IMG/VR virus record: IMGVR_UViG_3300030450_001613
Coordinates: 1 to 31,940 of that record
DNA: 31,940 nucleotides
Strand: one strand, 5' to 3'
From: a virus
Numbering within the stretch: position 1 is the first letter of the stretch; each line of letters begins with the position of its first letter. Under the pieces are notes generated by a model. That model saw only the letters and a program-made list of their open reading frames with translations, ran no database searches and was not told the origin of the DNA. Position numbers and translations under genes: made by a program. Positions 1-31,940 of this stretch are shown here, in pieces.

Positions 1-40
1 TATATGTTTTTATTTTTTTATTAGTTTCTTTTGCATACAT
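1..40 (-). CDS. Partial: N-terminus of the fibre-associated protein (second copy)
   Basis: An ATG at 38-40 starts MYAKETNKKIKTY and runs off the left edge. It is the same start as the gene at 31197-31661, whose first 13 residues differ only by F for Y at residue 13. In the circularised genome this is the gene directly downstream of the tail fibre, so this entry is a duplicate of that gene and not a separate one. Confidence 0.85.
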   Translation of the reverse strand, partial: MYAKETNKKIKTY

Positions 41-319
41 AATTATTATATTAAATTTTACGCCCCAATATCAGTTGCATCTGCAGTATAATTAGTTAAA
101 CTGTAAGCAAATTCAGGTTGTGCTGAATCATCGTGTAAACAAGTAACCTGCAAAAGATTAGATTTACTGCCATCATAATCAGCACTTACTTGATAATGGT
201 ATGATGTACCTGTGCCTTGGTCTGTAACATTAATAGTTTGACTACCAGTTAAACCACAAATTTCAATTGTTTGTCCAACTTTATAACCTGTATAATCTAA
301 AGTAGTAGCACCATTTAAA
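1..319. repeat. Left copy of diverged terminal direct repeat
   Basis: Bases 1-319 align without gaps to 31622-31940, with 14 substitutions. The repeat ends exactly at both window edges, as expected when a circular or terminally redundant phage contig is assembled past its own start. It covers the last third of the tail-fibre gene and the first 13 codons of the next gene. Twelve of the 14 changes are synonymous, so the two copies probably come from closely related phages in one population rather than from sequencing error. Confidence 0.9.
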
Positions 320-1670: not shown

Positions 1671-3412
1671 TATCTTTTATATTTATATCCTTTATCTGCT
1701 CTATCTATCGGTCTTTGTGCTACTTGTTTTGGCTCGCCTTTTTTTCCAAAACCTTTGTTCGGTGGTTTAATACCTTTTGTTTCTCTTTCTTGTTTGTACA
1801 CAGGTTTAAATTCTTGGCCTTTGAACATAAAAGTTTTTCTTAAAAAATAGTGATGACAATTTGCACCACCTTTGTGCAACCATATATTATAAGACTTTTC
1901 ACCTTTAGCAGCAAGCTCACCATTTGCGGTACTGTTTTTATTTAAATCTTCTTTGCGATAAATTTTTCTTGATTTAACCATTTTTCTACAAAACTCTCGG
2001 CTATTATTTTTTACGCTTAAAGGTGCATATTGATAACGTACTAAAAATTTCTCACCCTCTTTTGTTTCACCATCTAAATCACTATCACCCCTCGGCCTAC
2101 TTTTTGGAACAGTTGCTAGACTTAGCATTTTGTCTAATACTTCTTCTTGTTCATAATCAACAGGCCTTTCATCTACAAGTTCATAACCCATATCTAAAAG
2201 TTCTTGTTCATCTTGGCCTAGACTTTCTAAACTTTCTACCATTTTGAGGTCATCAAATTCTAAGTCAGAACTCATTTTAACGCCTGTTTCTTCCTCTCTA
2301 GTTTCTTTGTCGGTAACATTTGTTAAGTCAGTAAATTCTAATGGCTGTAGCGTCTTAAAATAAAGATTTAAACTTATATTGTTAAATGATAATATCTGGT
2401 CAAAAGCATCTATAAGTATATCTTGGAATGGTCTAATAGTAGTATTGTCCGTTAATATACTAGCTGTTTTTAATTCGTCTGCATTATTACCTAACCCTGT
2501 TTGGTCTTTAATACCAAATAACATAGGCGATACTATTCTGTGACTAACCAATATTTTTTTACTGCTTTCTTCACTCAAAAACTGGTATTGATTATGTGCA
2601 TCGTTCAATTGTATTGGCTCTATATTTGCTTGTGTATCTGCATTATCGTTAAAAGCTAAAATAAATTTACCACTGTTACTTGACCCTGAAAACTTTTGAT
2701 AAATTCTTTGTTCTATTAATGTACGTTGTTCCTCAGTTGGTGTGCCATTGTTAAAGTTGATTAACATACTAGGTGCTAAACCTTGCTTAATATTGGCTAA
2801 ATGATAGTTTGCTATTTCTTCTTCAAGTTCCGCATACTGTAAACCACCTTGATAATCAACTGGTGAGTAATAAAAATATCCTGCTTTGTATGGTTTAATA
2901 TACATTAACTCAATAGCTTCTTTAGATTTACCAAAACAAGGTATTCTTAATGGCTCATCTTTTCGTGTTATATTTTTCCAATCCTCAAAATAGTAATATG
3001 CTTCAATCTCACCATCATCATTTGCTTTTTCTGCCCTTAACGTTTCTACTGGTAAGTGTTCTAATTGTGCAATAGTTTTCCTATCTTTTGAATATATTAT
3101 TTGTACAGCACATTGTCCTAATAGTTTATAATCATATACCAATTTTCGTACTACATCTTTTTTAAATAAAGATACCATTTTAGCATACTCATCAGTTTTG
3201 GTATCACTATCAGTTGCATCTAATCCGTGACCGTAAATCATAGCTGATATACCATTTATTATAGCATTATTCGTAGGGCTGCCGTTGTACCTATCTATAA
3301 TGTATTCAAAATAATTATTATCCTCACCGTAGGACACCCAGTCTTGGTGCTTAACTTCTTTAATTTTTGGGCTAGCATAATTGCTTAAATTAACAATACT
3401 TATATCACTCAT
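1670..3412 (-). CDS. Portal protein with C-terminal Cys/His extension
   Basis: 580 aa. Residues 1 to about 370 match the phage portal fold: an N-terminal WVSYGEDN segment, a NAIINGISAMIYG segment near 49-61, and a long central region ending with the helix that carries GLGNNADELKTA near 306-317. The portal forms the dodecameric DNA gate at the capsid vertex. Residues about 455-530 are a separate domain with NSREFCRKM (C475) and GGANCHHY (C519, H520, H521), which could bind zinc. The last 40 residues are Lys/Arg-rich. The gene overlaps the upstream 115-aa gene by 4 bases. The portal call is firm; the function of the extension is unknown. Confidence 0.85.
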   Translation of the reverse strand: MSDISIVNLSNYASPKIKEVKHQDWVSYGEDNNYFEYIIDRYNGSPTNNAIINGISAMIYGHGLDATDSDTKTDEYAKMVSLFKKDVVRKLVYDYKLLGQCAVQIIYSKDRKTIAQLEHLPVETLRAEKANDDGEIEAYYYFEDWKNITRKDEPLRIPCFGKSKEAIELMYIKPYKAGYFYYSPVDYQGGLQYAELEEEIANYHLANIKQGLAPSMLINFNNGTPTEEQRTLIEQRIYQKFSGSSNSGKFILAFNDNADTQANIEPIQLNDAHNQYQFLSEESSKKILVSHRIVSPMLFGIKDQTGLGNNADELKTASILTDNTTIRPFQDILIDAFDQILSFNNISLNLYFKTLQPLEFTDLTNVTDKETREEETGVKMSSDLEFDDLKMVESLESLGQDEQELLDMGYELVDERPVDYEQEEVLDKMLSLATVPKSRPRGDSDLDGETKEGEKFLVRYQYAPLSVKNNSREFCRKMVKSRKIYRKEDLNKNSTANGELAAKGEKSYNIWLHKGGANCHHYFLRKTFMFKGQEFKPVYKQERETKGIKPPNKGFGKKGEPKQVAQRPIDRADKGYKYKR

Positions 3413-3756
3413 ACTAATATTAATTCATTATCATACGTTGAATCAGTTGTATATTCGCCACTATTTATTGTATAATAATTGTTTGTTGATTGTTGTACTG
3501 TTTGGTCAGTACAAAATATTTTATCTTTATATATAACATCACTACCCTCTTTTACTTCTAAGTCATAGTAACGACCTTCTTTCAATGCAAACGCTTGATT
3601 TAAAACCAAATAATCTCCGCTTGTAGTTGGCGTTACTGTATAATTAACGCTTGTATTTGCACTATCATCTCTAACAGTCAATGTTACTGAACTTGCATAA
3701 CTTCTAGGAATAATTTTCAACGTTTGTGATGATGTGCTTGTGGTAAGTTTCTTCAT
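3409..3756 (-). CDS. Small beta-rich structural protein upstream of portal
   Basis: 115 aa, beginning MKKLTTSTSSQTLKIIPR, with a repeating strand-turn pattern (VTLTVRDD, YLVLNQ, YYDLEVKEG, VIYKDKIFC). This suggests one Ig- or beta-sandwich domain. I have the impression that similar proteins precede portal or tail genes in flavobacterial phages, without an assigned role. Its ATG carries the ACGTTATAT-N4-ATG signal and lies just past a strong terminator, so it probably begins its own portal-connector-fibre transcript. Confidence 0.6.
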   Translation of the reverse strand: MKKLTTSTSSQTLKIIPRSYASSVTLTVRDDSANTSVNYTVTPTTSGDYLVLNQAFALKEGRYYDLEVKEGSDVIYKDKIFCTDQTVQQSTNNYYTINSGEYTTDSTYDNELILV

Positions 3757-4673: not shown

Positions 4674-5612
4674 TTATACAGTTGGGTGATATAAAACTAC
4701 ATCACTACCAAAACCAACTTGAATACCTGCTGTAAATCTTAAAACTACTCTGACATTCTGTGAGCCATCTAAGTCAGCCATATCAATTACCTTTGCTTCG
4801 TTAGTATCGTTTAGTAAACCAGTTCCAAAATAAAGATTTGATTTTCTAGCCGCAACCATTGTGTTGTCGCCCATACCTTTTGCAGTTACAACTGGTATGC
4901 CTTCAAAAGTTAAAGCACCATTTTGATACCACATAGAACCTTGAGCATTTACACCTGCTGCACCTAGTCCACTCGCACCAAATCCTCCAAGAGCTCTGAT
5001 GTATGCTTTAGCTACATTTGAAGATACATATAATAACAAATCTTCGCTTCCATAAACTGCACTTGGTATTGCTGTAACTACTTTGCCCATATCTTCAATA
5101 ACGTTAGAACTTGTCACCGCTTGCCCGCTAATGTCAGAAACATCACTATCTGCTGACAATAAGTTAAAGAAACCATCAAATTGACCTGCTGTTGCATTAG
5201 TACCATTCCAAATGTTTGTTTCAATTCTTTGTGCTACTTTATCTGCAACGTGAGCCAATAAAAAATCTACAAAAGAATTAGGTAAGTTGTCGTGTACGCT
5301 AATGCCCATTTGAGCTGCATCCCAGTCACTTCTAAAGTCTTTTTTACATAATTGTAAATTTACTTGGAACTCCTCTGGCTGTAAAATTTTCTCAGCTAAA
5401 GTCAAAGTTGATGTAGCTGAAAAATCACAAGTTGCATTTTTAACTAAATCATTTGATGTAGCACCTGTTTTTAAAACCTCTTTATATTTAATATTTGGTT
5501 TAATTGTTATCAAATCGTTAGCAAGTGTGCTACCTGACAAAAGACTCGCAGAAATATATCCTGCTGCTTTTTCCCCTGCGTACGTTGTTGTTATACTAGT
5601 TGTTGTTGCCAT
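4674..5612 (-). CDS. Major capsid protein (HK97-like fold)
   Basis: 312 aa. The order protease, scaffold, this gene is the usual head-assembly order. The sequence has a capsid-like E-loop/spine region (LQPEEFQVNLQLCKKDFRSD, about 92-111), a long helix (FVDFLLAHVADKVAQRIE), and a C-terminal P-domain with ENxW-type and GIPVV segments near 238-243. About 312 residues is normal for an HK97-fold capsid without a large N-terminal pro-domain. It is followed by a terminator, as expected for the most abundant virion protein. No crosslinking Lys/Asn pair can be assigned from sequence alone. Confidence 0.85.
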   Translation of the reverse strand: MATTTSITTTYAGEKAAGYISASLLSGSTLANDLITIKPNIKYKEVLKTGATSNDLVKNATCDFSATSTLTLAEKILQPEEFQVNLQLCKKDFRSDWDAAQMGISVHDNLPNSFVDFLLAHVADKVAQRIETNIWNGTNATAGQFDGFFNLLSADSDVSDISGQAVTSSNVIEDMGKVVTAIPSAVYGSEDLLLYVSSNVAKAYIRALGGFGASGLGAAGVNAQGSMWYQNGALTFEGIPVVTAKGMGDNTMVAARKSNLYFGTGLLNDTNEAKVIDMADLDGSQNVRVVLRFTAGIQVGFGSDVVLYHPTV

Positions 5613-5617
5613 TTTAA

Positions 5618-6223
5618 TTAATTTTTAAATTTTTCAAAATTTTCAAGCACTCTGCTGTACGTTGAATTTTTTTGTTTGTTAATATTCAACAGATTTTTTA
5701 ATTCTGTCTTTGCTTCTGGTTTATGAACAATTGGTTTTGCCGCTGCTTCAGATAGCTGTTGTTTTAATTCAGCGTTTTCTTCTTCCTGCTTAGACATTTT
5801 TTCCTTTTTATCTTCAACCATTTTTTTAATTTCCTCAACTAATTTTTTAACTTCTGCAAGTTCTTCTTTAGTTGCATAATGCTTTTTCATATCGTCCTTG
5901 TCGTCTTCTTCTAATTCAGCTTCAACATCTTCAGATGCTTCTTCTTTTTCTTCTCCAATTGATACGATTTTGCCATCCTTAGCAACTAACACTTCAGAAC
6001 TTTCCAAAGTATATGTGCCATCAGGTAAAGGTACTTTTTCGTCATCAGTTACAATAAATACATCCTTACCTGCACTCATTGCTTCTGCTTCGATAGTTGC
6101 ACCATTCTCAAGTTTTGCTGTCGCTAACTCTACTGCTTCTACAGTTTCGTTAGGTTTATCCTCAGACAATTCGATGCCCAAAAGATTTTTTATGTCGTTA
6201 ATCATTTGCTGTGCGTTTTTCAT
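5618..6223 (-). CDS. Scaffold-like capsid assembly protein
   Basis: About 201 aa from the ATG at 6223. An in-frame ATG two codons earlier (6229) is less likely, because the ACGTTATAT-type motif is exactly 4 bases from 6223. The centre (about 90-160) is a highly charged Glu/Lys coiled coil; the N-terminal part has a small beta segment (VFIVTDDEKVPLPDGTYTL). Acidic, helical, coiled-coil proteins placed between prohead protease and capsid are typically internal scaffolds that are degraded after assembly. The stop lies 5 bases before the capsid ATG. Confidence 0.7.
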   Translation of the reverse strand: MKNAQQMINDIKNLLGIELSEDKPNETVEAVELATAKLENGATIEAEAMSAGKDVFIVTDDEKVPLPDGTYTLESSEVLVAKDGKIVSIGEEKEEASEDVEAELEEDDKDDMKKHYATKEELAEVKKLVEEIKKMVEDKKEKMSKQEEENAELKQQLSEAAAKPIVHKPEAKTELKNLLNINKQKNSTYSRVLENFEKFKN

Positions 6224-6227
6224 ATAC

Positions 6228-6237
6228 ATATAACGAC
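6228..6237 (-). promoter_or_regulatory. CGTTATAT start-proximal motif (scaffold)
   Basis: Minus-strand CGTTATAT ends 4 bases before the ATG at 6223. This fixes the scaffold start at the second of two close ATGs. It is the weakest of the five copies, with TCGTTATAT where the others have ACGTTATAT. It lies in the 31-base gap after the Ig-repeat gene. Confidence 0.5.
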
Positions 6238-6260
6238 AACTTAAAAAAATTTTGCATTTA

Positions 6261-8618
6261 TTAACTCATAGAAGTTACAACGCCACTAGATACGGCACCT
6301 GACGCACTTGTTGTAGAATAATTGCCATCAGGGAATGCAGTTACACTTTCTGATTGTCTAGTAAATTCATTTGCACCTTGACAAGTTGTAATTAATAATT
6401 TGTTATAAATAGTTGCACCTACAATACCGCCATCTACACCTGCTGATGTAAAGTTGCAATAATCAACTATCGACTTAACTCTAAATTGCCTAAACGTTCC
6501 AGACGGCCTATCTTGGTGTGACTGCACATCATTTGATGCAAATGTATCAGCTTCACTAGAACTATTAGGGCTAAAATATAATGTAGCACTTGAACTATTA
6601 GCACATCCCCAACTTGTAGATGTACTACCACTATCTGTAAATGTTGGATTATCCGTTCTACCAGATACAACTACAGGTGTTGTTTGTGAATGTAAAGTAG
6701 TACAGCCTTTCAATACCAAATCTTGGCTTATTGAAGTGCTACCGTTTATTGTAGTTGTTATTCTGTAAGTGCTAAATTGTGTGTAATCTGCTGTAAACGT
6801 CCAAACTTTATGTATATTTCCTGGTAATGCAGGCCTTGTTACATCACCGATAACGCCACTTAAACTAGAGCCACTATTGGCATAAATACTTGTTACAGCA
6901 ACACTTGCTAATACTTGTATTGTAGCTGTAGATGTACTAAGCAATAAATTACTTGCACTTGTATTAGGGTTTAAAAAGCTAGTATATCCATAATTGTTAT
7001 ACGTTGGTGATTGGTCTACATTATTAAATCCAAAAGTAGTATTTACAAAAGCATCAAAATCAGGCTCGTTGCTATCTTGTACACTATCACTATCTCTATC
7101 TTCAAATGCCCCTGTATTTCTATTGTATTGTGCAAAGTTTGCATTGTGTACCCTACCGCCTGATGTGTCAAATACAAGTGGATTGTTATCACTTAATGTG
7201 CCTAACATACCTATCGTAAGTGTAGTTAATGGTTGATTTGCAGTCGTTGTACAAACTATATTAGACCCTGCATTAAAATAACCACTCGGGGCAGTTATTG
7301 TTGCACTTAAAGTTCTTGACGTTATTGCATAAACTATACTATCAAAACTTGCAGGGCTTGTGCTGACTAGTGTTCCTACATCAACTGTAGGTGCTGTTAT
7401 AACTCCACCAGAACTAACAGCAAAACCACTTAGCGTAACATCAGAACAGCTAAATGTAGGAGTAGCAACCTGTGTTGCAGTAGTAGTACAAGTAACTGTT
7501 GAGCCAGTATTAAAATAACCTGCTGGCACATTAATAACTACAGACAATGTTCTTGTCGTGTTTGTATCAACAATAGCAAAACTACTAGGTGAACTGCTAG
7601 CAATAGTTCCTGCACTCAAACTAGGCAAAGTTATTACCCCTGCCTGTGATACAGCAAAACCACTTAATGTGACATCACTACAAGTAAATGTAGGAGTCAA
7701 TGGTTGTGTGGCTGTAGTTGTACAAGCAATAGTACTACCTGAATTTAAAAATGTACTGGGTGCTGTTAGATTTACAGTTAATGTCCTTGTTGTATTTGTG
7801 CTTACTATTGCAAAACTCGACGGGCTTGTAGAAGCAATTGTACCGACAGAACTGCTTGGTGCTGTAACTACTCCTGCCTGACTTACTGCAAACCCTGATA
7901 ACGTTGTACTGGTACATTCATAAGTATCTCTTAATTGTGTTGCTGTTGTAGTACAGGTTATTGTGCTACCAGTATTATGATAATTAGCAGGTACAGTGAT
8001 TGTAAGTGTCAAAGTTTGTACTGTATCTGATGTAACTACCGCATAACTGCTAGGGCTTTTTGTAAAGCTACAACTAACACCTGAACTTGTTACTGTTACT
8101 GTAGGGTCTGTAATAACACCTGCATCACTTATAGCAAAACCACTAATTGTTAAATCACTACAAGTCAAACTGGGTGCATTTTGATTAGCTGTTAAAGTAC
8201 ATTCTAAAAAACTACCCTCATTAGCAAAACCTTGTGGTGCAATTAAAGTTGCAACTACACTCCTTTCTGTTGTAGTCGTAACTGTACTAAAACTTGTAGG
8301 GGTATAGCTAACTAACTCAGCTGATGCTAAAGATAAACTCGTGGCACCTGTGTCACTAACTGTGAAAGTCGCACTAACATCACTACAAGTAAAATTAGTA
8401 GCATTAGAATTATTTAATAATACTTGTTGCGTGTTTGTTTGCGTTACAGAATTACTTTTATTTTGCCCTGCTACTACAGAATATTCATTTGTATTTTGAC
8501 CAACTAAAGAACCGATGCCTTGATTTAAAATTAAACCTTTACAGCATTTTTTTCTATATGTGTTATCCTCACATAAACAAGCCCTATTACCCCCAATAGG
8601 TGATGTAGTTCTTTGCAT
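6261..8618 (-). CDS. Large Ig-repeat virion protein with Cys-rich N-terminus
   Basis: 785 aa. The N-terminus has CLCEDNTYRKKCC (14-26) followed by NQGIG, a Cys motif I have the impression of from flavobacterial phage structural proteins. Residues about 76-465 are five Ig-like repeats of roughly 78 aa, each beginning with a TCSD...LSGFAVS...GVI unit and ending in GSxxxCTTTATQ. The C-terminal 320 residues are different, with a D-rich stretch (RDSDSVQDSNEPDFD, about 509-523) that could bind calcium. Ig repeats on phage heads or tails often bind surface glycans weakly. The gene lies directly between protease and scaffold with no spacer, so a head fibre is as likely as a tail protein. Confidence 0.65.
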   Translation of the reverse strand: MQRTTSPIGGNRACLCEDNTYRKKCCKGLILNQGIGSLVGQNTNEYSVVAGQNKSNSVTQTNTQQVLLNNSNATNFTCSDVSATFTVSDTGATSLSLASAELVSYTPTSFSTVTTTTERSVVATLIAPQGFANEGSFLECTLTANQNAPSLTCSDLTISGFAISDAGVITDPTVTVTSSGVSCSFTKSPSSYAVVTSDTVQTLTLTITVPANYHNTGSTITCTTTATQLRDTYECTSTTLSGFAVSQAGVVTAPSSSVGTIASTSPSSFAIVSTNTTRTLTVNLTAPSTFLNSGSTIACTTTATQPLTPTFTCSDVTLSGFAVSQAGVITLPSLSAGTIASSSPSSFAIVDTNTTRTLSVVINVPAGYFNTGSTVTCTTTATQVATPTFSCSDVTLSGFAVSSGGVITAPTVDVGTLVSTSPASFDSIVYAITSRTLSATITAPSGYFNAGSNIVCTTTANQPLTTLTIGMLGTLSDNNPLVFDTSGGRVHNANFAQYNRNTGAFEDRDSDSVQDSNEPDFDAFVNTTFGFNNVDQSPTYNNYGYTSFLNPNTSASNLLLSTSTATIQVLASVAVTSIYANSGSSLSGVIGDVTRPALPGNIHKVWTFTADYTQFSTYRITTTINGSTSISQDLVLKGCTTLHSQTTPVVVSGRTDNPTFTDSGSTSTSWGCANSSSATLYFSPNSSSEADTFASNDVQSHQDRPSGTFRQFRVKSIVDYCNFTSAGVDGGIVGATIYNKLLITTCQGANEFTRQSESVTAFPDGNYSTTSASGAVSSGVVTSMS
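7224..8393 (-). repeat. Five tandem Ig-like repeats (about 234 bp each)
   Basis: The conserved cysteines at residues 78, 153, 235, 313 and 391 mark repeats spaced 75-82 codons apart. Repeats 3, 4 and 5 are the most alike, with nearly the same GFAVSxAGVIT, SPSSFAIV and NTTRTL segments. The same unit occurs once in the 201-aa protein at 15314-15919. Confidence 0.75.
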
Positions 8619-10211
8619 TTATTTTGGTTTTTTTGGATGTTTACTAGGTAATAAATCAAAATCGCCAGTATATTTTTTATTTTGAGGCCTGCCGTTTTTA
8701 ACTAAATATAAAAAAGCATTAACCCTAGCTTGCGCCCATTGACTAGCACTACTAACTTTTCGTGAATGGCCTACATTAAAAGCACCTAAACCTCTTTGAT
8801 AAACAGCCCTTAACATACCAACAGTTACGCCATATCCTAATTTTTTCTTGTATCTTTCGTTAAAATCATCACTTTTTTTTTGCAATATTTCGTTGTCTCT
8901 TTTAGATACTTTTGCACTTCTTGTATTACCTGCATCACCTTTTGCTGTTCCTTGCCCTTTTGGGTTTCTATTTGGGCCACCTCTGGGTGCTTTAGGCGAT
9001 TTTACAATACCACCTCGTGGACCAATTTTAGCTGCTTTAACGCACTTATGTTTTTTGTAATCTTTTTTATATCCTTTAGGGCATTTATATTTTTTAAATT
9101 CTTCTACACTCATATTGTGTTTTTCACAGGGCATATACCATTTTTTACCCTCTAATTCGTGTATATGAAAACCATTACAACCCATATCATTACTTGCTTT
9201 CATAGCCGCATCAACTGTACTATATGCTAAACGATTATCAATTATGGCAATTTTATCGTTTATAATTTTTGTGATAGAATCTTCTTGTAACTGATTTAAA
9301 TCTCTAAGTTTTTTTCTAGCCCATCTTTTTCCTGCTAAACCACCCCATAATAAATATGAAATAGTTCCACAAGCATCAGATTTATCAGGGTCATAATAAG
9401 TTTCAGCCCTACTTAAATAACTGTACATTCTTTTAATTGTGTCCACAGTAACTTTACCGCCCTTTGCTAAAGTTGCTGCCCTAACTTTACCTACCTGTGT
9501 AGCACATTTATTTTTAACTTTTGCATTTAAATCAATACCCTTTTGTGCATTATTAGAAACTGCATCAGGGTAATCGTTATAACTTTGCAAAGTAATTTTA
9601 TCGCCTGTTATAATTGCTTTTAACTGCTCAACAATATGTTTTTTTTCTTCTTCTTCAATTACACTTAGCTCATCTTTAACGCCTTTTTCTTGTGGTTTTT
9701 CAAATTTATCTGCAAAATACCCCTCTATACTAAAACCTTTTACAGCACCCGTTTTTACAAACTCATTCCAAACTTTATCAGAATTAACTTTAACAGCACC
9801 TACCCAAGTGCCTAGCGGTAAATCCATATCATACATTCTACTTTTATCGTGTACTTTATCTTCAACAATCCAACTTTCTACAAGGGTTAGACCTTTAAGT
9901 GTATGTTGGTGTTCAAGTGTTGCATTATTTTGATTACCTGCGCTTAGAAACTTTTGACTTGCAGTTTTGACTGTATCACGACTGAAATAAATATAATATT
10001 CTTGGTCTTTTGTTTTACGATAAATCGGTTTGTTCGGCACAAGTAAAGCACCAACTAACAAGCGTTGCTCTTTATCGATTTCAGCTAATTTAAATTCTTT
10101 ATCTTTTAAAGCGACAAAATCTTCTTGTATTGCGGGTGATTCTACGAGTGATATCGCTTCAATCCCGTTAAGCTCATCATTTTCATCAATGATTAATTCT
10201 ACTATTTTCAT
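8619..10211 (-). CDS. Prohead protease (XkdF/S78-2-like) fused to accessory domains
   Basis: 530 aa, much longer than a stand-alone prohead protease (about 200 aa). Residues 1 to about 172 are protease-like: GIEAISLVESPAI near 17-29, ATLEHQHT with H101/H103, GTWVGAVKV, and KGFSIEGYF with candidate nucleophile S161. Residues about 208-303 form a second domain with C235 and C281 and an LWGGLAGKRWARKKL end. About 328-392 hold Cys/His clusters (CNGFHIHE, PCEKH, KYKCPKGYKK, KHKCV). Residues about 440-522 match a DUF5824-like domain (RGLGAFNVGHS...QWAQARVNAFL). Prohead proteases cut scaffold and capsid during maturation. Five-prime placement before scaffold and capsid fits; the roles of the added domains are unknown. 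Confidence 0.75.
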   Translation of the reverse strand: MKIVELIIDENDELNGIEAISLVESPAIQEDFVALKDKEFKLAEIDKEQRLLVGALLVPNKPIYRKTKDQEYYIYFSRDTVKTASQKFLSAGNQNNATLEHQHTLKGLTLVESWIVEDKVHDKSRMYDMDLPLGTWVGAVKVNSDKVWNEFVKTGAVKGFSIEGYFADKFEKPQEKGVKDELSVIEEEEKKHIVEQLKAIITGDKITLQSYNDYPDAVSNNAQKGIDLNAKVKNKCATQVGKVRAATLAKGGKVTVDTIKRMYSYLSRAETYYDPDKSDACGTISYLLWGGLAGKRWARKKLRDLNQLQEDSITKIINDKIAIIDNRLAYSTVDAAMKASNDMGCNGFHIHELEGKKWYMPCEKHNMSVEEFKKYKCPKGYKKDYKKHKCVKAAKIGPRGGIVKSPKAPRGGPNRNPKGQGTAKGDAGNTRSAKVSKRDNEILQKKSDDFNERYKKKLGYGVTVGMLRAVYQRGLGAFNVGHSRKVSSASQWAQARVNAFLYLVKNGRPQNKKYTGDFDLLPSKHPKKPK

Positions 10212-17660: not shown

Positions 17661-18821
17661 TTATTGAATAGCATATTTACCAAAATTTGGCTTGCTTAAT
17701 ATATTAAAGGTAGCGTATCTTAATGAATCTAACAAATGGTTATTTCTATCAATAGGTATATTAGTTAGTTTACCTGTTTTATCTTCACTCCATTTATAGT
17801 TTCTAAATTCTTGTATAAGGTTTTGACTGTTAGGGGTTACAAATAATTTATACCTTTTTAATAAATCAATGCCTGCAATAATACTATCTCGCCCTTTTTT
17901 TGTAGGCCTAATATTCCAACCAGTTCTTCTTAAATAATCATTTAATCTTGGCTCACTACTATCACTATATATAATTTTATCGCCTACATTAAGTATTTTA
18001 AAATGTGAATGTATATCCTCGGCCGTCATCATAGTTTTATAAAGATGTTCTTCGATATATAAATTGTGCCCTTTTTTATATACTGAAATATGTGCTGTTG
18101 GGTCATTGGTATATCCATAGTCAACGCCCATAGATAAAAACTCAGCATCTTCTGGTATGTTACTTTCTTGGTAATTAAATATAGTGGCTTTACTGATACC
18201 TTTTTGGCCTAAGCCATATATTTGCCAATACTGAGGGTCAGTTTCTTTTAATCTTTCTATTTCTTTTATTAGGGCTTGTTCTAAAAATGTATTGTCTTTA
18301 TAAGTTGTTATATAAAAGTCTGCATCATCTCTAGTTATAACTTTGTCATATATCCAACTATATTCATCAGATGGGTTGTAATCTAATATTATTTTTTGAT
18401 TAGTTCTGAATAATAACTGTTGCCAATCTTCAAAGTAAAGTTCGTTAGCTTCGTTTATAAAAAGCACATCTCTTTTTCTACCCCTTACTTTTTGTGGCTC
18501 ATCTAAACTTATAAATTCTACAAGATTGTTGTATAAATTATATTCGCTTGATGATTTATTGTGATTTATTTCATTATACATTTTATGTGTTTTAAGTATA
18601 TCAAAAAAATCACGCATTACAGTTGCTCTTAAACTGGGAAAACTTTTGCGACAAATTGTAATTATTTTACCTGTGTTTTGTGTGCAAAAACTAAATATTA
18701 TCCATAATAATATATTATACGTTTTTCCAGAACGTGTACCGCCTTGCTCAACTATAATTTTTTTTTGGCTTTTTAAAAGGTGTTTAAAAACTACATTAGT
18801 CTTTATCTTCATTTTTTTCAA
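17661..18821 (-). CDS. terL: Terminase large subunit
   Basis: 386 aa. N-terminal packaging ATPase: Walker A GGTRSGKT (27-34) and Walker B RDVLFINE (117-124, E124 catalytic). C-terminal RNase H-like nuclease: D234 (GVDYGYTNDP), D287 (IYSDSSEP) and D365 (NNHLLDSLRY). With the portal it drives DNA into the prohead and cuts at the end of packaging. Its start overlaps the small subunit by 26 bases. Length is slightly short but all motifs are present. The ATG at 18821 is followed by a second ATG three codons later, so the exact start is uncertain. Confidence 0.95.
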   Translation of the reverse strand: MKKMKIKTNVVFKHLLKSQKKIIVEQGGTRSGKTYNILLWIIFSFCTQNTGKIITICRKSFPSLRATVMRDFFDILKTHKMYNEINHNKSSSEYNLYNNLVEFISLDEPQKVRGRKRDVLFINEANELYFEDWQQLLFRTNQKIILDYNPSDEYSWIYDKVITRDDADFYITTYKDNTFLEQALIKEIERLKETDPQYWQIYGLGQKGISKATIFNYQESNIPEDAEFLSMGVDYGYTNDPTAHISVYKKGHNLYIEEHLYKTMMTAEDIHSHFKILNVGDKIIYSDSSEPRLNDYLRRTGWNIRPTKKGRDSIIAGIDLLKRYKLFVTPNSQNLIQEFRNYKWSEDKTGKLTNIPIDRNNHLLDSLRYATFNILSKPNFGKYAIQ

Positions 18822-19152
18822 TAATCTCTACAATGACATTATTCGGTAAACCATCTGCCCCAGTTATTTCTTGTCTTTCAACATACCCTCTTTTTTTACC
18901 TTTTGTTTTTAACAAAAATATTGTAGCGGCCGTATTACCTTTTTGTATTTGTTGATGCAACTGGCTTTCTGCAAAATCTAAAGTTATATTTTCAAGTTCA
19001 TCAACCTTTTGCCTAAATTCTGCATCTTCATTATAATATTTGTAAAACGTAGTTCGTCCAATACCTGCTTGTTTACAAGCTGTTGTAACTACCCCTAAAG
19101 ATTTTTCTAATGCTTCTAACAATGCTTTTTTATTGTGTTCACTTTTGTTCAT
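18796..19152 (-). CDS. terS: Terminase small subunit
   Basis: 118 aa. An N-terminal helix-turn-helix (about 13-42: GVVTTACKQAGIGRTTFYKYY) binds DNA. A central helical region (about 50-80) would form the oligomer ring, and a charged acidic tail would contact the large subunit. It precedes and overlaps terL, the usual order. It follows the oxygenase gene with a 15-base gap, and its ATG has ACGTTATAT at 4 bases, so it may begin the late transcript. Confidence 0.85.
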   Translation of the reverse strand: MNKSEHNKKALLEALEKSLGVVTTACKQAGIGRTTFYKYYNEDAEFRQKVDELENITLDFAESQLHQQIQKGNTAATIFLLKTKGKKRGYVERQEITGADGLPNNVIVEIIEKNEDKD

Positions 19153-19167: not shown

Positions 19168-19971
19168 TTATTTTTTATTAAAACCTGCTAAGGGATAAAA
19201 TATTAAACTATTCCTGTAAGCGTCTGCATTATGTTTAATAATTTTTGTAACTCCGTGAATATTATACCAAGCGGGATAAACTAACATACTATTATTAGAT
19301 TGCTCAAAAGTATGTTTAAAATCTGGTACTGATAATGCACCCCCCTCTGTATCTTTTCTTTTAGTTAATATTACATTTACAGTATCTTTTAAATTGCCTT
19401 TGTCTTGATGATACGGTGCTGCAATATTAAAGTTGGATATACTACTGGTAAATAAATTACCAAATCTAAATTCTGGTAAAGTGTTTTCTTCTATAAGTTT
19501 TTTTTGTATTTTGTATTGTTCAGGCATATATTGTTTAATTAATTTTTCGCTTTCCAAACAAGATAGTAACATCGCTTTTATAAATGTTTTAGCTTTTGGA
19601 TTTGTATGCACACTTGATACAGAATTATAAGGTCGCCTTAAATGTGCTTTTGCTAACACTGCACCAAGTATTGTACTCATCTGAGGAGTGCCTAGTGCTT
19701 TAGCTTGTTTTCTTGTTATGCCTAATTTTTGTTGTAGCTTATAAATATCAGCTCGTTCTAATAAACTTTTAGGTACATTATTGCTTAAAAATTCTTTATT
19801 AGCTATTGTAATGTATTGCTTTAATTTGTCTGGTAAATCTGTCAAATAAAATCCAATTATTTTGTTTTCGTGTTTTAATAAACAGCTTTCAGTTATTGTA
19901 GGAGGTATAAATTCACAACGCTTTCCTATTCTTATATTATGTTCGTGTTTTTTAAGTTCTAAAATTTTCAT
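19168..19971 (-). CDS. TET/JBP-type 2-oxoglutarate/Fe(II) DNA-base oxygenase
   Basis: 267 aa. The C-terminal half holds the jelly-roll catalytic set: H188 and D190 (PYHQDKGN), a TVNVIL strand, GGALSVPD (210-217), H239 (NIHGV) and R253 (YRNSLIFYP), which would bind 2-oxoglutarate. In TET/JBP enzymes this centre oxidises the methyl group of 5-methylcytosine or thymine in DNA to a hydroxymethyl. The N-terminal 160 residues are mostly helical, possibly DNA-binding. It overlaps the TET-associated-type glycosyltransferase gene by 4 bases, so the pair is coupled. Another 2OG oxygenase (protein or small molecule) is the alternative, made less likely by the neighbour. Confidence 0.75.
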   Translation of the reverse strand: MKILELKKHEHNIRIGKRCEFIPPTITESCLLKHENKIIGFYLTDLPDKLKQYITIANKEFLSNNVPKSLLERADIYKLQQKLGITRKQAKALGTPQMSTILGAVLAKAHLRRPYNSVSSVHTNPKAKTFIKAMLLSCLESEKLIKQYMPEQYKIQKKLIEENTLPEFRFGNLFTSSISNFNIAAPYHQDKGNLKDTVNVILTKRKDTEGGALSVPDFKHTFEQSNNSMLVYPAWYNIHGVTKIIKHNADAYRNSLIFYPLAGFNKK

Positions 19972-20720
19972 ATTTTACTTTTATCAACTAACCTTAACTC
20001 TGGATGTCCTGTGCTTTTTCTAAAATACATTTCACAATAATTAGGAAACATATTTTTAATACGCTTTATGTGGTTAATCATATATTCAGATGTTCTAATT
20101 TCTTGCAAACCACCTTTCTCTCTAAAATAATTAGATTTCGCAGTTATATAATCAAACCTAAGCAATTTTTTATTTTTTATGTATTGCCTTATACTATATT
20201 CATAATCTTCGCCGTGATTCGTTTGTCTTTCTAGAAACGAATCGTGTTCTATTATAACGCCAAACATACTAGCAATTATGTAACTTAATTTAGTATAATA
20301 TCTTTTTTTCATAAAATAAGCATTTGAAGCAGCATAAATTCCAAAAGTTTTAGCACCTATTTTTTCGCATAATTCAAATCCTTTTAGTATAAATTCTTTT
20401 TCTAAATCTTTGCATTTTACTAATTGTGTATCACTTACTTTAACCATCACTTGCTCTAAGTCATCATCAAACATCATTAATCTAGTTCCTTCTTTATAAT
20501 ATTTTTCTATAAAATTCCTTTGAGCACCAATAGTCAAAACTCCTACTACAATTTTGTATTCATTCTTTAAAGATTCTTTATATAATTTTTCTTCCTCTTT
20601 ATTTGCTACAAATATTTTAATCCTCTTTTTATCAATATTATACTGTTTTAGCATTTTAAGAGTTTTGTCTTTAATTGTTTCATACCGTTTGTATGAGGGG
20701 ATTGCTATTTTATAATCCAT
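19968..20720 (-). CDS. TET-associated-type glycosyltransferase (GT-A fold)
   Basis: 250 aa. The sequence begins YKIAIPSYKRYETIKDKTL (3-21), has IKIFVANKEEE (34-44) and VVGVLTIGAQRNFIEKYY (58-75), and the acidic metal-binding MFDDD (83-87). That arrangement fits the TET-associated glycosyltransferase family from phage base-modification clusters, related to the enzyme that glucosylates hydroxymethyluracil to make base J. It would transfer a sugar from a nucleotide-sugar to the hydroxymethyl made by the neighbouring oxygenase. Donor sugar unknown. The gene follows the second transferase after 3 bases. Confidence 0.75.
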   Translation of the reverse strand: MDYKIAIPSYKRYETIKDKTLKMLKQYNIDKKRIKIFVANKEEEKLYKESLKNEYKIVVGVLTIGAQRNFIEKYYKEGTRLMMFDDDLEQVMVKVSDTQLVKCKDLEKEFILKGFELCEKIGAKTFGIYAASNAYFMKKRYYTKLSYIIASMFGVIIEHDSFLERQTNHGEDYEYSIRQYIKNKKLLRFDYITAKSNYFREKGGLQEIRTSEYMINHIKRIKNMFPNYCEMYFRKSTGHPELRLVDKSKI

Positions 20721-20723
20721 AAT

Positions 20724-21398
20724 TTATATTACTTTTTTCAAATTATAGTGTTTATTTTTATTTACCCAAGTATTCAGTTTATAATCCTCAATATAGTAAT
20801 TTTCTTTATTATCATTTGACCATTTTGTATATACAAGTTTTAAGGGTTTATATTTAGGAAAGACTTTTTTAATAAATCTTGCTAAAAATTTTGGTCCAGT
20901 AGTTTGTAAAACAAACCTACCTTTCCACGTATTATAAATATCTATTTCTTTTTTTTCATTATAATTTTTTACACAATATTTCATTACGTGTTTCCACAAT
21001 TCGTGCCCTTTAATAACTCCCATAAAATCATTTTCTATAAAACTGTAGTTCGGTTTGACATATCTTATATTATGGAATACTTTTGTATTATTAATTAATG
21101 AATCTAAGGGTTGTAAAATAATCATATCAAGGTCTATATAAAAACCTCCGTATTTATGTAATATACAAAACCTTACAAAGTCAATCCTTTGAATATCATA
21201 TCTTAAATCTTTATAAAATTTTAAATAAGTATTATATTCATTTTTTATTAATTCTAAAGAGGTTTGCTCATTCCAAAGAATATATTTAAAACCCTTTTGA
21301 CTAGAACAATTTAGATGGCTTCGATAAAAAAATTCTTGTTCTTCTAATTTTTTGTCGTATAAATTAAAATAGATTTGATGTATAATTTTAGGAATCAT
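20724..21398 (-). CDS. DxD sugar transferase (Gly_transf_sug / OCH1-like)
   Basis: 224 aa. It starts IPKIIHQIYF, has RIDFVRFCILHKYGGFYIDLDM (71-92) with the D89-x-D91 metal site and conserved Arg/Asp residues, and ILQPLDS. This is the Gly_transf_sug (GT32-like) family, which transfers hexoses from nucleotide sugars. In this cassette it may extend the first sugar on DNA or act on another surface. The start overlaps the ParB-fold gene by 11 bases. A cell-surface glycan target cannot be excluded. Confidence 0.7.
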   Translation of the reverse strand: MIPKIIHQIYFNLYDKKLEEQEFFYRSHLNCSSQKGFKYILWNEQTSLELIKNEYNTYLKFYKDLRYDIQRIDFVRFCILHKYGGFYIDLDMIILQPLDSLINNTKVFHNIRYVKPNYSFIENDFMGVIKGHELWKHVMKYCVKNYNEKKEIDIYNTWKGRFVLQTTGPKFLARFIKKVFPKYKPLKLVYTKWSNDNKENYYIEDYKLNTWVNKNKHYNLKKVI

Positions 21399-21951
21399 AC
21401 TTTTGCATAGCTTTATAAAATAATTCAGACAAATTAACTTCTTTAGCTTTTAATTCATCATAAAGAGTTTTAATCATTTCAAATCCTTCAGCTGGATATT
21501 CTAATATAATAGATTTTTTAGTTTGTTGATACATCGTGTCTATTTCTTTGTTTAAATCAATATCATCTAATATACTGTAATCTACATTTTCATCAGGTTG
21601 CCATACATTCAATCCCCAATCATTTAATTCTTTATTATCCCAATCATTAGCCAATATATCCCAATCCCAATCACCAAAACTTATATTATCTTTAATTATA
21701 AATTTTTCTTTTTGTTCTTTAGTCCAGTTGTCTGCCTTAATTATTGTAACTTGTTTTAATCCTGCTTTTTTGCAGGCTTCTAATCGCATATTGCCACCTA
21801 ACACTACAAAATCTTCATCTACAACGATAGGCCTTTTATCTAACATTTCTGGGAAATCTTTTATACTTTGCACCAATTTTTCAAACTGATTGTCTTTTAT
21901 TATCCTAGGATTATTTGTGTTTAATTTAATTTTGTTTATATCTATTTTCAT
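21388..21951 (-). CDS. ParB/sulfiredoxin-fold protein
   Basis: 187 aa. The N-terminal ParB-like domain has the NPRIIKDNQFEKLVQSIKDF start (14-33), PIVVDEDFVVLGGNMRLEACKKAG (41-64) with the GGNMR nucleotide-binding core, and VTIIKAD. Asp/Trp-rich segments follow (WDWDILANDWDNKELNDWG). ParB folds can hydrolyse CTP or act as nucleases; in phages they often sit beside DNA-modification genes. It overlaps the 56-aa gene (ATGA) and the sugar transferase, so it is part of this operon. Its exact role here is not visible. Confidence 0.75.
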   Translation of the reverse strand: MKIDINKIKLNTNNPRIIKDNQFEKLVQSIKDFPEMLDKRPIVVDEDFVVLGGNMRLEACKKAGLKQVTIIKADNWTKEQKEKFIIKDNISFGDWDWDILANDWDNKELNDWGLNVWQPDENVDYSILDDIDLNKEIDTMYQQTKKSIILEYPAEGFEMIKTLYDELKAKEVNLSELFYKAMQKYDS

Positions 21952-22121: not shown

Positions 22122-22571
22122 TTATTTTTTCAATGCTATTTTAATACAAGGTTTAATAAGCTCTAAAGCATCTGGTGATAATTTTTTTACAGTTTCAATC
22201 ACCCTATTAATTTCAGAAGCATAATCTAAATCTAATTGTTGATTTATATAATCAACCGTATATCCATTCAATATTTTTCTTTGACTACTTAAATCCCAGT
22301 TACTTTTTTTTGTTAATTTATGCCAAGTTTTGATACTGTGAATTATGGTGGCGTGGTGAGTTGATTTACCTTTTAATTTAAAAAATCTTGCTATCCTTGA
22401 TGGTCCTGTTTGCGGATATTTTTTTTTTATTGTGTATGCTAATAAGAAACGAGCATATGTGTATTCTATTTTTCTTGTATTCGAAAATAAATTAATGTCT
22501 AGCATATTGTTAATTGTATTAGCATAGTGTTCAAACATCGGTAAAGGTATAGGGATTCTTTTATTATACAT
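22122..22571 (-). CDS. DnaA domain IV-like DNA-binding protein
   Basis: 149 aa. The middle (about 34-81) has the helix-turn-helix of the DnaA C-terminal domain: YARFLLAYTIKK, GPSRIARFFKLKGKS, then HHATIIHSIKTW, similar to DnaA's HTTVLHAxxK signature. There is no AAA+ ATPase part. Such proteins may mark the phage origin or recruit host replication proteins. It overlaps the exonuclease gene by 8 bases. Confidence 0.65.
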   Translation of the reverse strand: MYNKRIPIPLPMFEHYANTINNMLDINLFSNTRKIEYTYARFLLAYTIKKKYPQTGPSRIARFFKLKGKSTHHATIIHSIKTWHKLTKKSNWDLSSQRKILNGYTVDYINQQLDLDYASEINRVIETVKKLSPDALELIKPCIKIALKK

Positions 22572-31197: not shown

Positions 31198-31661
31198 TAT
31201 ATAAATTTTACTATGTCAAGTTTTTTTGTTAGTTTATTTAAAGCAATAACATCATCATCATATTTTTTTCTAATTGCATCCCTTTCATCTTTAATTGCTT
31301 GTGATAATTCAACACCAGTTTCAAATGCTTCTAATGCCGCAGCCCTAGTTGGCTCTAACAAAATATCACGTCTTATTTCAAGCTGTAATAATTTTTGTTC
31401 TTTTAATTCACTAACACTTTCAGAAAAAGTTTTGTTTTTTAAACTATATACAAACTTGCCTTTAGTTTTGTTAAATTTTAAGTCCTTTAATTCTTGTACC
31501 CTACTATCATATTCAGGTACTTCTACTTTATAAAAACCCTCATCAGCTAATTCATCATCTGATAATAAATTAAAGCCAGTTAAATAATATTTTTTGCCAT
31601 TATAATTGCTTGGCAATACATTAAATGTTTTTATTTTTTTATTAGTCTCTTTTGCATACAT
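31197..31661 (-). CDS. Fibre-associated protein (assembly-chaperone-like)
   Basis: 154 aa. An N-terminal beta part (TFNVLPSNYNGKKYYLTGFNLLSDDELADEGFYKV) is followed by a long C-terminal coiled coil (90-150: SELKEQKLLQLEIRRDILLE). The domain order resembles small fibre-assembly proteins placed after fibre genes. In circular order it begins 17 bases after the tail-fibre stop, inside the terminal repeat. Function inferred from position and layout. Confidence 0.5.
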   Translation of the reverse strand: MYAKETNKKIKTFNVLPSNYNGKKYYLTGFNLLSDDELADEGFYKVEVPEYDSRVQELKDLKFNKTKGKFVYSLKNKTFSESVSELKEQKLLQLEIRRDILLEPTRAAALEAFETGVELSQAIKDERDAIRKKYDDDVIALNKLTKKLDIVKFI

Positions 31662-31940
31662 AATTATTATATTAAATTTTACGCCCCAATATCAGTTGCA
31701 TCTGCAGTATAATTAGTTAAACTATAAGCAAACTCAGGTTGTGCTGAATCATCGTGTAAACAAGTAACCTGCAAAAGATTAGATTTACTACCATCATAAT
31801 CAGCACTTACTTGATAATGATATGATGTACCTGTACCTTGATCTGTAACATTAATAGTTTGACTACCAGTTAAACCACATATTTCAATTGTTTGCCCTAC
31901 TTTATATCCTGTATAATCTAAAGTTGTAGTACCATTTAAA
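31622..31940. repeat. Right copy of diverged terminal direct repeat
   Basis: Second copy of bases 1-319, 14 substitutions. Within it the fibre gene (87 codons) differs at 12 positions, of which only one changes an amino acid (A to T). The five-prime part of the fibre-associated gene differs at two positions, one of which changes an amino acid. Confidence 0.9.
31679..31940 (-). CDS. Partial tail-fibre gene (second copy, C-terminal 86 aa)
   Basis: This is the C-terminus of the tail fibre, running off the right edge. It is identical to the 58-873 product over its last 86 residues except A to T near the start. It represents the same gene in the circular genome, or an allele of it, not an independent gene. 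Confidence 0.85.
   Translation of the reverse strand, partial: LNGTTTLDYTGYKVGQTIEICGLTGSQTINVTDQGTGTSYHYQVSADYDGSKSNLLQVTCLHDDSAQPEFAYSLTNYTADATDIGA

Follow-up and report, generated by a model that had tools for sequence, protein, structure and literature searches.

A four-gene operon in a small marine phage, whose host is probably a flavobacterium, is best explained as a cassette for post-replicative DNA hypermodification. A TET/JBP oxygenase would oxidize thymine, and sugars would be added by a TET-associated glycosyltransferase (TAGT) and then by a second transferase; we put the probability of this reading at roughly two in three. The window, meaning the whole stretch of DNA analysed, is the 31,940-nucleotide record IMGVR_UViG_3300030450_001613. 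Its ends, 319 nt each, match end to end at 96% by blastn. On account of this overlap the contig looks like a closed, essentially complete genome of about 31.6 kb, as an earlier reading made from the sequence alone (the sequence-only reading) had supposed; the database labels the record linear because the terminal repeat is not exact. No phage record matched the window by megablast.

The cassette occupies positions 19168-21951 on the minus strand, in the order ParB-fold protein, DXD transferase, TAGT and TET/JBP (Table 1). All four reading frames are present where the sequence-only reading had placed them, and the junctions are those of one coupled operon: the ParB and DXD transferase genes overlap by 11 nt, a 3-nt gap separates the two transferase genes, and the TAGT and TET genes overlap by 4 nt. 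The gene for the small terminase subunit lies 15 nt from that of the TET.

Table 1. Features of the window discussed in the text.
Feature	Positions	Strand	Details
Left copy, imperfect terminal overlap	1..319	.	96% to 31622-31940, blastn of window ends
Large terminase subunit	17661..18821	-	Pfam Terminase_3/3C
Small terminase subunit	18796..19152	-	phrog_309/4044/4102; by synteny, kept directly downstream of TET
TET/JBP 2-oxoglutarate/Fe(II) dioxygenase	19168..19971	-	267 aa; H188-x-D190, H239, R253
TAGT, TET-associated glycosyltransferase, GT-A type	19968..20720	-	250 aa; DDD motif, residues 85-87
DXD glycosyltransferase (Gly_transf_sug)	20724..21398	-	224 aa; D89-x-D91
ParB-fold protein, first cassette gene	21388..21951	-	187 aa; phrog and structure matches
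Right copy, imperfect terminal overlap	31622..31940	.	Carries the record's only GATC (31840)

The assignments of the oxygenase and the TAGT held up in Pfam searches, at 37.1 bits for Tet_JBP (PF12851; cut-off 34.9) and 57.8 bits for TAGT (PF20691; cut-off 27.5). The catalytic residues proposed for the oxygenase are correct: the HxD...H metal triad of His188, Asp190 and His239, together with the 2OG-binding Arg253, is invariant in 17 homologues. Its AlphaFold2 model (pLDDT 93.4) has the TET-type double-stranded beta-helix fold, with a Z score of 19.2 to TET2 (7ne6; 3.5 Å, 241 residues aligned) and 18.5 to NgTET1 (4lt5; 2.8 Å, 206 aligned), the next unrelated 2OG enzymes scoring 14.7. The whole model aligns to TET2, and Tet_JBP is the only domain in the 267 residues, with neither a J-binding nor an SNF2 domain found.

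The TAGT matches phrog_842, a beta-glucosyl-HMC-alpha-glucosyltransferase family (E 4e-19), and we propose that it is a transferase acting on a hydroxymethyl base. The DXD enzyme matches Gly_transf_sug at 60.3 bits (cut-off 23). Within the window's family its gene occurs only alongside a TAGT or TAGT-like gene, and its role is therefore probably to add to or extend the first sugar. The ParB-fold protein comprises an N-terminal ParB/sulfiredoxin-like domain (residues 1-92), a low-confidence middle and a small C-terminal helical part. Its ParB_N score of 23.2 bits falls under the 26.3 cut-off, but it matches the phage ParB-like families phrog_940/498/17622/620 (E 1e-23 to 1e-25) and the profiles of ParB structures (E 8.7e-10), and residues 1-92 superpose on Myxococcus ParB 7bnr (Z 13.4, 1.6 Å, 88 aligned). 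The canonical nucleotide motif of ParB CTPases is GERRxRA; the window protein has LGGNMRLEA at that place, where the sequence varies across the family.

The absence of a methyltransferase, already remarked on in the sequence-only reading, was borne out. No C5-methyltransferase (PF00145) was found in the window, and no other methyltransferase appeared among its Pfam-scanned proteins; the product of 8619-10211, a candidate through its match to phrog_1530, is instead a phage protease (Peptidase_S78_2). A dCMP/dUMP hydroxymethylase of the thymidylate synthase type (PF00303 superfamily) was found in 0 of 15 records, the window included. As far as these searches see, then, the phage supplies neither 5-methylcytosine nor a hydroxymethyl-dNTP. 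Since no methylating enzyme is encoded, thymine is probably the substrate base.

How phage TETs are partnered was surveyed at loci picked by the TET gene alone, which is not an unbiased census. Four TET groups have a ParB neighbour at 150/150 loci and an adjacent C5-methyltransferase at 0/150, whereas the fifth, Melnitz-type group has a C5-methyltransferase neighbour at 58/58 and ParB at 0/58. Phage TETs had been expected usually to accompany a phage methyltransferase; in the survey the ParB-linked, methyltransferase-free arrangement is the commoner, at 150 of the 208 ParB- or C5-linked loci. Loci within a clade are near relatives, so that the independent evidence amounts to about five clades, not 208 loci, and the Fisher p for ParB versus C5 linkage (5.6e-53), being computed over related loci, is not usable as a measure of evidence strength. 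On the TET tree, which contains long branches, ParB linkage is present in two separated clades and the window TET falls outside the methyltransferase-linked clade (support 100/98). The ParB-TET core spans phages of Flavobacteria, cyanobacteria, Pelagibacter and actinobacteria with no C5-methyltransferase beside it; searches of whole records found PF00145 in 2 of 100, both MED4-184-like. Scanning with the TETs of S-CBWM1 and Cr30 brought up only phages already found.

Two substrate-pocket positions considered as tests of substrate fail to split ParB-linked from C5-linked TETs. Eight residues beyond the 2OG-binding Arg, TETs of the window type and those of cyanophages and actinophages have Leu; the HTVC112P, Cr30 and Nonlabens types have Arg there, and Melnitz has Asp. 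At the last position of HxDxx[N/D] the window clade carries Asn, and the ParB-linked HTVC112P and C5-linked Melnitz types both carry Asp.

In the pathway that we favour, the ParB-like protein would bind phage DNA and bring or license the oxygenase, acting as a target selector or recruiter. The oxygenase would then convert the 5-methyl group of thymine in DNA to give 5-hydroxymethyluracil (5-hmU); no methyltransferase would be needed because thymine, with its 5-methyl, is already in DNA. The TAGT would place a sugar on the 5-hmU hydroxyl and the Gly_transf_sug enzyme would add or extend a second, an order that the presence pattern of the two genes suggests. Modification would come late, the core being linked to the neighbouring terminase genes, would mask the DNA from nucleases, and would probably be partial or site-restricted. 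A more specific version is tentative: ParB may replace the methyltransferase as target selector of the TET, thymine being oxidized in place at chosen sites on phage DNA and the two transferases building a mono- or disaccharide on 5-hmU. The product would be a base J analogue of bacterial viruses, partial and possibly tied to packaging through the adjacent terminase.

This idea is partly anticipated by earlier work. Iyer and co-workers have reportedly already discussed how specific phage TET/JBP enzymes are. The sequence-only reading held that thymine modification would be new for so small and AT-rich a phage, a claim that does not stand: in the Prochlorococcus phages MED4-184 and MED4-117 (38 kb) and the Pelagibacter phage HTVC112P (32 kb), ParB-TET likewise occurs with no C5-methyltransferase next to it, and the ParB-TET-kinase set of the actinophage Tonitrus, a Rhodococcus phage, has been described in print as putative thymidine hypermodification (PMC11955845). 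MED4-184/117 carry the closest cultured TET to that of the window (41% identity) and share its ParB-X-TET-TerS-TerL order, but X is an FkbM-type methyltransferase and no TAGT was found; a MED4-184 gene labelled 'DNA methylase' in RefSeq is ParB by Pfam. Cassettes of actinophages (Tonitrus, Gordonia phage Wooper, Mycobacterium phages Acadian and Indlovu) share with the window a leading ParB, a TET, tailoring enzymes and a terminase after them, in genomes likewise free of a C5-methyltransferase, and Acadian and Indlovu also have a TAGT. Their TETs are only about 16-25% identical to that of the window, and their cores carry aGPT-PPlase2 and hmU-kinase-type genes. The window, whose host is probably of another kind, encodes a second glycosyltransferase besides the TAGT, and no aGPT-PPlase, deacetylase or kinase, hmU-kinase and aGPT-PPlase genes having been looked for and not found there.

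Melnitz-type systems also hold a TET/JBP in a phage operon, but there the C5-methyltransferase overlaps the TET, ParB is absent and the TET belongs to a separate clade. With the kinetoplastid base J pathway (JBP1/2 and the J glucosyltransferase) the common logic is that T in DNA is oxidized and then glycosylated; the window differs in that its TET bears no additional domain of the J-binding or other kind, in using a TAGT as glycosyltransferase, and in its two transferases and ParB partner. Tailoring of the hydroxymethyluracil hydroxyl in DNA is established for phages M6, ViI and phiW-14 (PMC6449724), for which incorporation of 5-hmdUTP during replication is proposed, whereas the window, lacking a hydroxymethylase, would oxidize T in place. 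As of a 2019 paper, glucosylated 5-hmU was unreported in any phage.

Across the window's family the ParB-TET core is kept while the gene between is exchanged, among glycosyltransferases and a kinase. The TET tree implies about 21 changes in what this slot contains, one of them between identical TETs. At nine loci it is a P-loop kinase related to the actinophage 5-hmU-kinase-type proteins (hhalign probability 97.4, E 1.5e-11). Counting against the thymine model, the actinophage kinase family, PF18751, differs from PF18748, that of the characterized M6 5-hmU DNA kinase; the two align over the P-loop half only (E 9e-5). Such swapping suggests that these phages are in a rapid arms race with DNA-cutting defences of bacteria, and would be expected if host enzymes learn to recognize or ignore each decoration.

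An unexpected feature of the window's family is that GATC and CATG are nearly eliminated, with one GATC in the whole record. Modification is therefore not complete protection at those sites. The near-absence of both would be odd if thymine were fully modified, and it counts against the thymine model. The interpretation of the sequence-only reading is thus partly supported: thymine is the more likely substrate, as the lack of a methyltransferase and the ParB linkage suggest, but the loss of these sites speaks against full modification.

The same loss would be compatible with the sparse marks expected if the oxygenase acted on host-made 5-methylcytosine, its product being glycosylated 5-hydroxymethylcytosine only at host-methylated sites. 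A C5-methyltransferase is encoded in 51 of 120 Flavobacteriaceae genomes, and the closest TAGT activity known from biochemistry is towards cytosine derivatives, the acceptor of T-even phage TAGTs being glucosylated hmC, not hmU (PMC13216743). We nevertheless consider this route rather improbable. The other 69 genomes have no such enzyme, nor does the sole bacterial bin with a close relative (Flavobacteriaceae, 76%); the ParB-TET core, across four host groups, would have to rely on very different host methylomes; and phages of the methyltransferase-bearing TET group bring their own enzyme at every locus.

Incomplete protection at GATC and CATG would also fit a local role, in which ParB would direct the TET to a handful of sites close to where packaging begins and the mark would be a signal for terminase, not genome-wide armour. 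In phages of several host phyla the terminase genes follow immediately after the TET, the large subunit being encoded less than 3 kb downstream at 127 of the 128 loci where it was seen, and phage P1 offers a precedent in that Dam methylation of pac triggers packaging (as cited in PMC6449724). This role is distinctly unlikely, in that rapid exchange of the decorating enzyme fits defence evasion better than a signal for a conserved terminase, and the window ParB is without the canonical GERR motif. That the cassette targets RNA, a free nucleotide or, through its transferases, another phage or host polymer, with the TET alongside incidentally, we regard as very unlikely. TET/JBP-fold enzymes are diverse, Gly_transf_sug enzymes have many acceptors, and the PHROG containing the window TET is labelled queuine tRNA-ribosyltransferase, but that label is wrong by Pfam and contradicted by the fold. 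A base in DNA better fits the DNA-binding-type ParB partner, the TAGT membership, the 4-nt TAGT/TET overlap and the exchange, within a single slot, of enzymes that tailor a hydroxyl.

Whether a phage TET is partnered by ParB or by a methyltransferase would give a simple way of predicting, from the genome, if it acts on T or on 5-methylcytosine. The swappable slot and the loss of GATC and CATG together offer a natural series on bacterial recognition of decorated DNA. Should the oxygenase indeed act on thymine, the chemistry of base J would extend beyond kinetoplastids and would also be carried by marine phages.

The window carries a ParB-linked TET/TAGT hypermodification cassette, as the sequence-only reading had proposed; the four open reading frames are real and correctly placed, and the TET/JBP and TAGT assignments are confirmed by Pfam, and that of TET/JBP also by invariant residues and predicted fold. 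TET/JBP, TAGT and the DXD transferase (Gly_transf_sug) all exceed curated Pfam cut-offs. ParB is under its cut-off, yet is clear in PHROGs, in a profile match to solved ParB structures and in its fold (Z 13.4 across residues 1–92, the remainder of the predicted model being poor). The oxygenase was modelled with confidence (pLDDT 93.4), and its nearest folds are those of TET-type enzymes (TET2, NgTET1, CcTET and CMD1), with the remaining 2-oxoglutarate enzymes clearly behind. The catalytic residues already picked out by eye, H188, D190, H239 and R253, are invariant across window, cyanophage and actinophage relatives.

The first and last 319 nt of the record, whose database class is linear, match over their full length at 96%. 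We take the match for an imperfect terminal overlap, suggestive of a circularly permuted genome in a mixed-population assembly, and regard the genome, at about 31.6 kb, as essentially complete. This favours the earlier view that the whole genome is present, and missing genes are thus informative. The portal is nearest to that of Nonlabens phage P12024S, the terminase matches Flavobacterium phages and a 76% TET relative is present in a Flavobacteriaceae genome bin, all of which points to a marine flavobacterium as the probable host.

Phage TET loci were gathered by TET sequence alone and their adjoining genes then scored. ParB was present and an adjacent C5-methyltransferase absent in all window-type (58/58), cyanophage (61/61), actinophage (8/8) and HTVC112P-type (23/23) loci, whereas all 58 Melnitz-type TETs adjoin a C5-methyltransferase and none a ParB. 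Neither gene adjoins the Cr30-type (n=4) or Nonlabens (n=1) TETs. The independent units here are clades, not loci. A 66-tip TET tree sets the window, cyanophage and actinophage types (100/98) apart from the HTVC112P type, which, although ParB-linked, falls with Melnitz, Cr30 and Nonlabens; partner type would have to change at least three times. Deep joins in this tree are uncertain because of long branches. The HTVC112P-type pairing of ParB and TET would have come about independently or anciently. Most simply, ParB-linked TETs would need no methyltransferase because their substrate, thymine, is already methylated.

Were the substrate instead 5-methylcytosine, a methyltransferase would have to come from phage or host. 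The window lacks PF00145, in keeping with the methyltransferase-free cassette first described, as do 49 relative records. Among 50 further records, complete cyano- and actinophages included, PF00145 occurs in two, both MED4-184-like and the only exceptions in 100; by coordinates their enzyme lies about 4 kb from TET, past ParB and outside the cassette. PF00303 (thymidylate synthase/hydroxymethylase) was likewise not found in the window and 14 relatives. A C5-methyltransferase is encoded in 51 of 120 Flavobacteriaceae genomes and was not found in the bin holding the TET relative, which may be incomplete; host-supplied C5 methylation is a possible but unreliable source. Thymine is the most likely putative substrate. 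To the full scheme, in which ParB recruits or licenses TET, TET oxidizes thymine in DNA to 5-hydroxymethyluracil, and TAGT and then Gly_transf_sug add sugar, we assign a probability of roughly two-thirds.

The gene order ParB-X-TET-TerS-TerL is constant in the window's family, with TerL no more than 3 kb downstream of TET in 127 of the 128 loci where one was seen. The intervening X is swappable: Gly_transf_sug plus TAGT (the window and others), TAGT alone, a divergent TAGT-like gene or a P-loop kinase, with FkbM in the cyanophages. Sampled divergent sub-types scored 53 bits (two), 20.8 bits (one, sub-cut-off) and no match (one) against Pfam TAGT. X switches about 21 times on a 58-tip TET tree, and differs within one group of identical TETs. 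Since every Gly_transf_sug seen in this family was accompanied by TAGT or a TAGT-like gene, the first sugar is probably attached by TAGT and the following one by Gly_transf_sug. The slot kinase is related to the kinases adjoining actinophage ParB-TET (hhalign 97.4%, E 1.5e-11), which are annotated as 5-hmU DNA kinases; its resemblance to the characterized M6 enzyme is weak, so that it supports hydroxymethyluracil, short of proof.

Features of the window and of compared loci (L-numbers)
Record	Positions	Feature	Observation
Window	19168–21951 (−)	Cassette	ParB, Gly_transf_sug, TAGT, TET/JBP
Window	22122–22571	Small protein immediately upstream of cassette	Weak DnaA C-terminal HTH similarity; kept in many relatives
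Window	1–319; 31622–31940	Terminal overlap	
L034	2743–4155	470-aa protein between ParB and TET	TAGT in C-terminal half; ~220 aa without convincing Pfam match; possibly a fusion of two tailoring enzymes
L075 (beta-proteobacterial contig)	9075–10004	309-aa protein in ParB-TET slot	No Pfam match; possibly a further tailoring enzyme
L069 (MED4-184)	7647–8288	"DNA methylase"	Misleading annotation; only ParB
L172 (Acadian gp5)	3022–3588	"Terminase small subunit"	Misleading annotation; P-loop kinase (PF18751)
L178 (M6 gp54)	41685–42248	"Terminase small subunit"	Misleading annotation; 5-hmdU DNA kinase (PF18748)
L185 (Pelagibacter phage HTVC112P)	4162–6384	ParB-TET-FkbM cassette	In second TET clade
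L184 (Nonlabens phage P12024L gp26–28)	4725–6990	Other flavophage cassette: TET, TAGT, N6/N4-type DNA methylase	Neither ParB nor C5-methyltransferase found next to it
L174 (MED4-184-like)	1219–2124	C5-methyltransferase	301 aa
L175 (MED4-184-like)	1489–2394	C5-methyltransferase	301 aa

Modification of thymine has already been proposed for relatives of the window phage, and 288 of 753 phage genomes with TAGT but without alpha- or beta-GT have been taken to suggest novel modifications (2026 paper, PMC13216743). Within the literature searched, the proposed glycosylated version in this flavophage family, the mutual exclusion of ParB and methyltransferase, and the swapping rate are new.

The window's only GATC falls within a copy of the terminal overlap and CATG is missing altogether, where second-order Markov simulations gave 52 and 59 sites; 29 coding sequences hold neither, against 35 and 44 with codon shuffling (200 shuffles; minima 20 and 26). 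The loss spans most of the family (relatives L001–L067) independently of X (divergent-TAGT loci, for example, 12/562 and 11/675), with exceptions that include loci L054, L029/L030 (GATC retained) and L052. Nonlabens P12024 phages (46/51, 40/50.5) and cyanophage relatives show no such loss. We infer that these phages must encounter GATC- and CATG-specific enzymes, against which DNA modification would be insufficient protection at these sites. ViI and phiW-14 DNA is T-hypermodified, with slightly less than half of T replaced, yet is partly cut by NlaIII and Sau3AI (PMC6449724). Since the loss of GATC and CATG would be needless with every T (or C) fully modified, we favour a modification in the window's family that is partial or site-restricted, or else tolerated by the enzymes specific for these sites.
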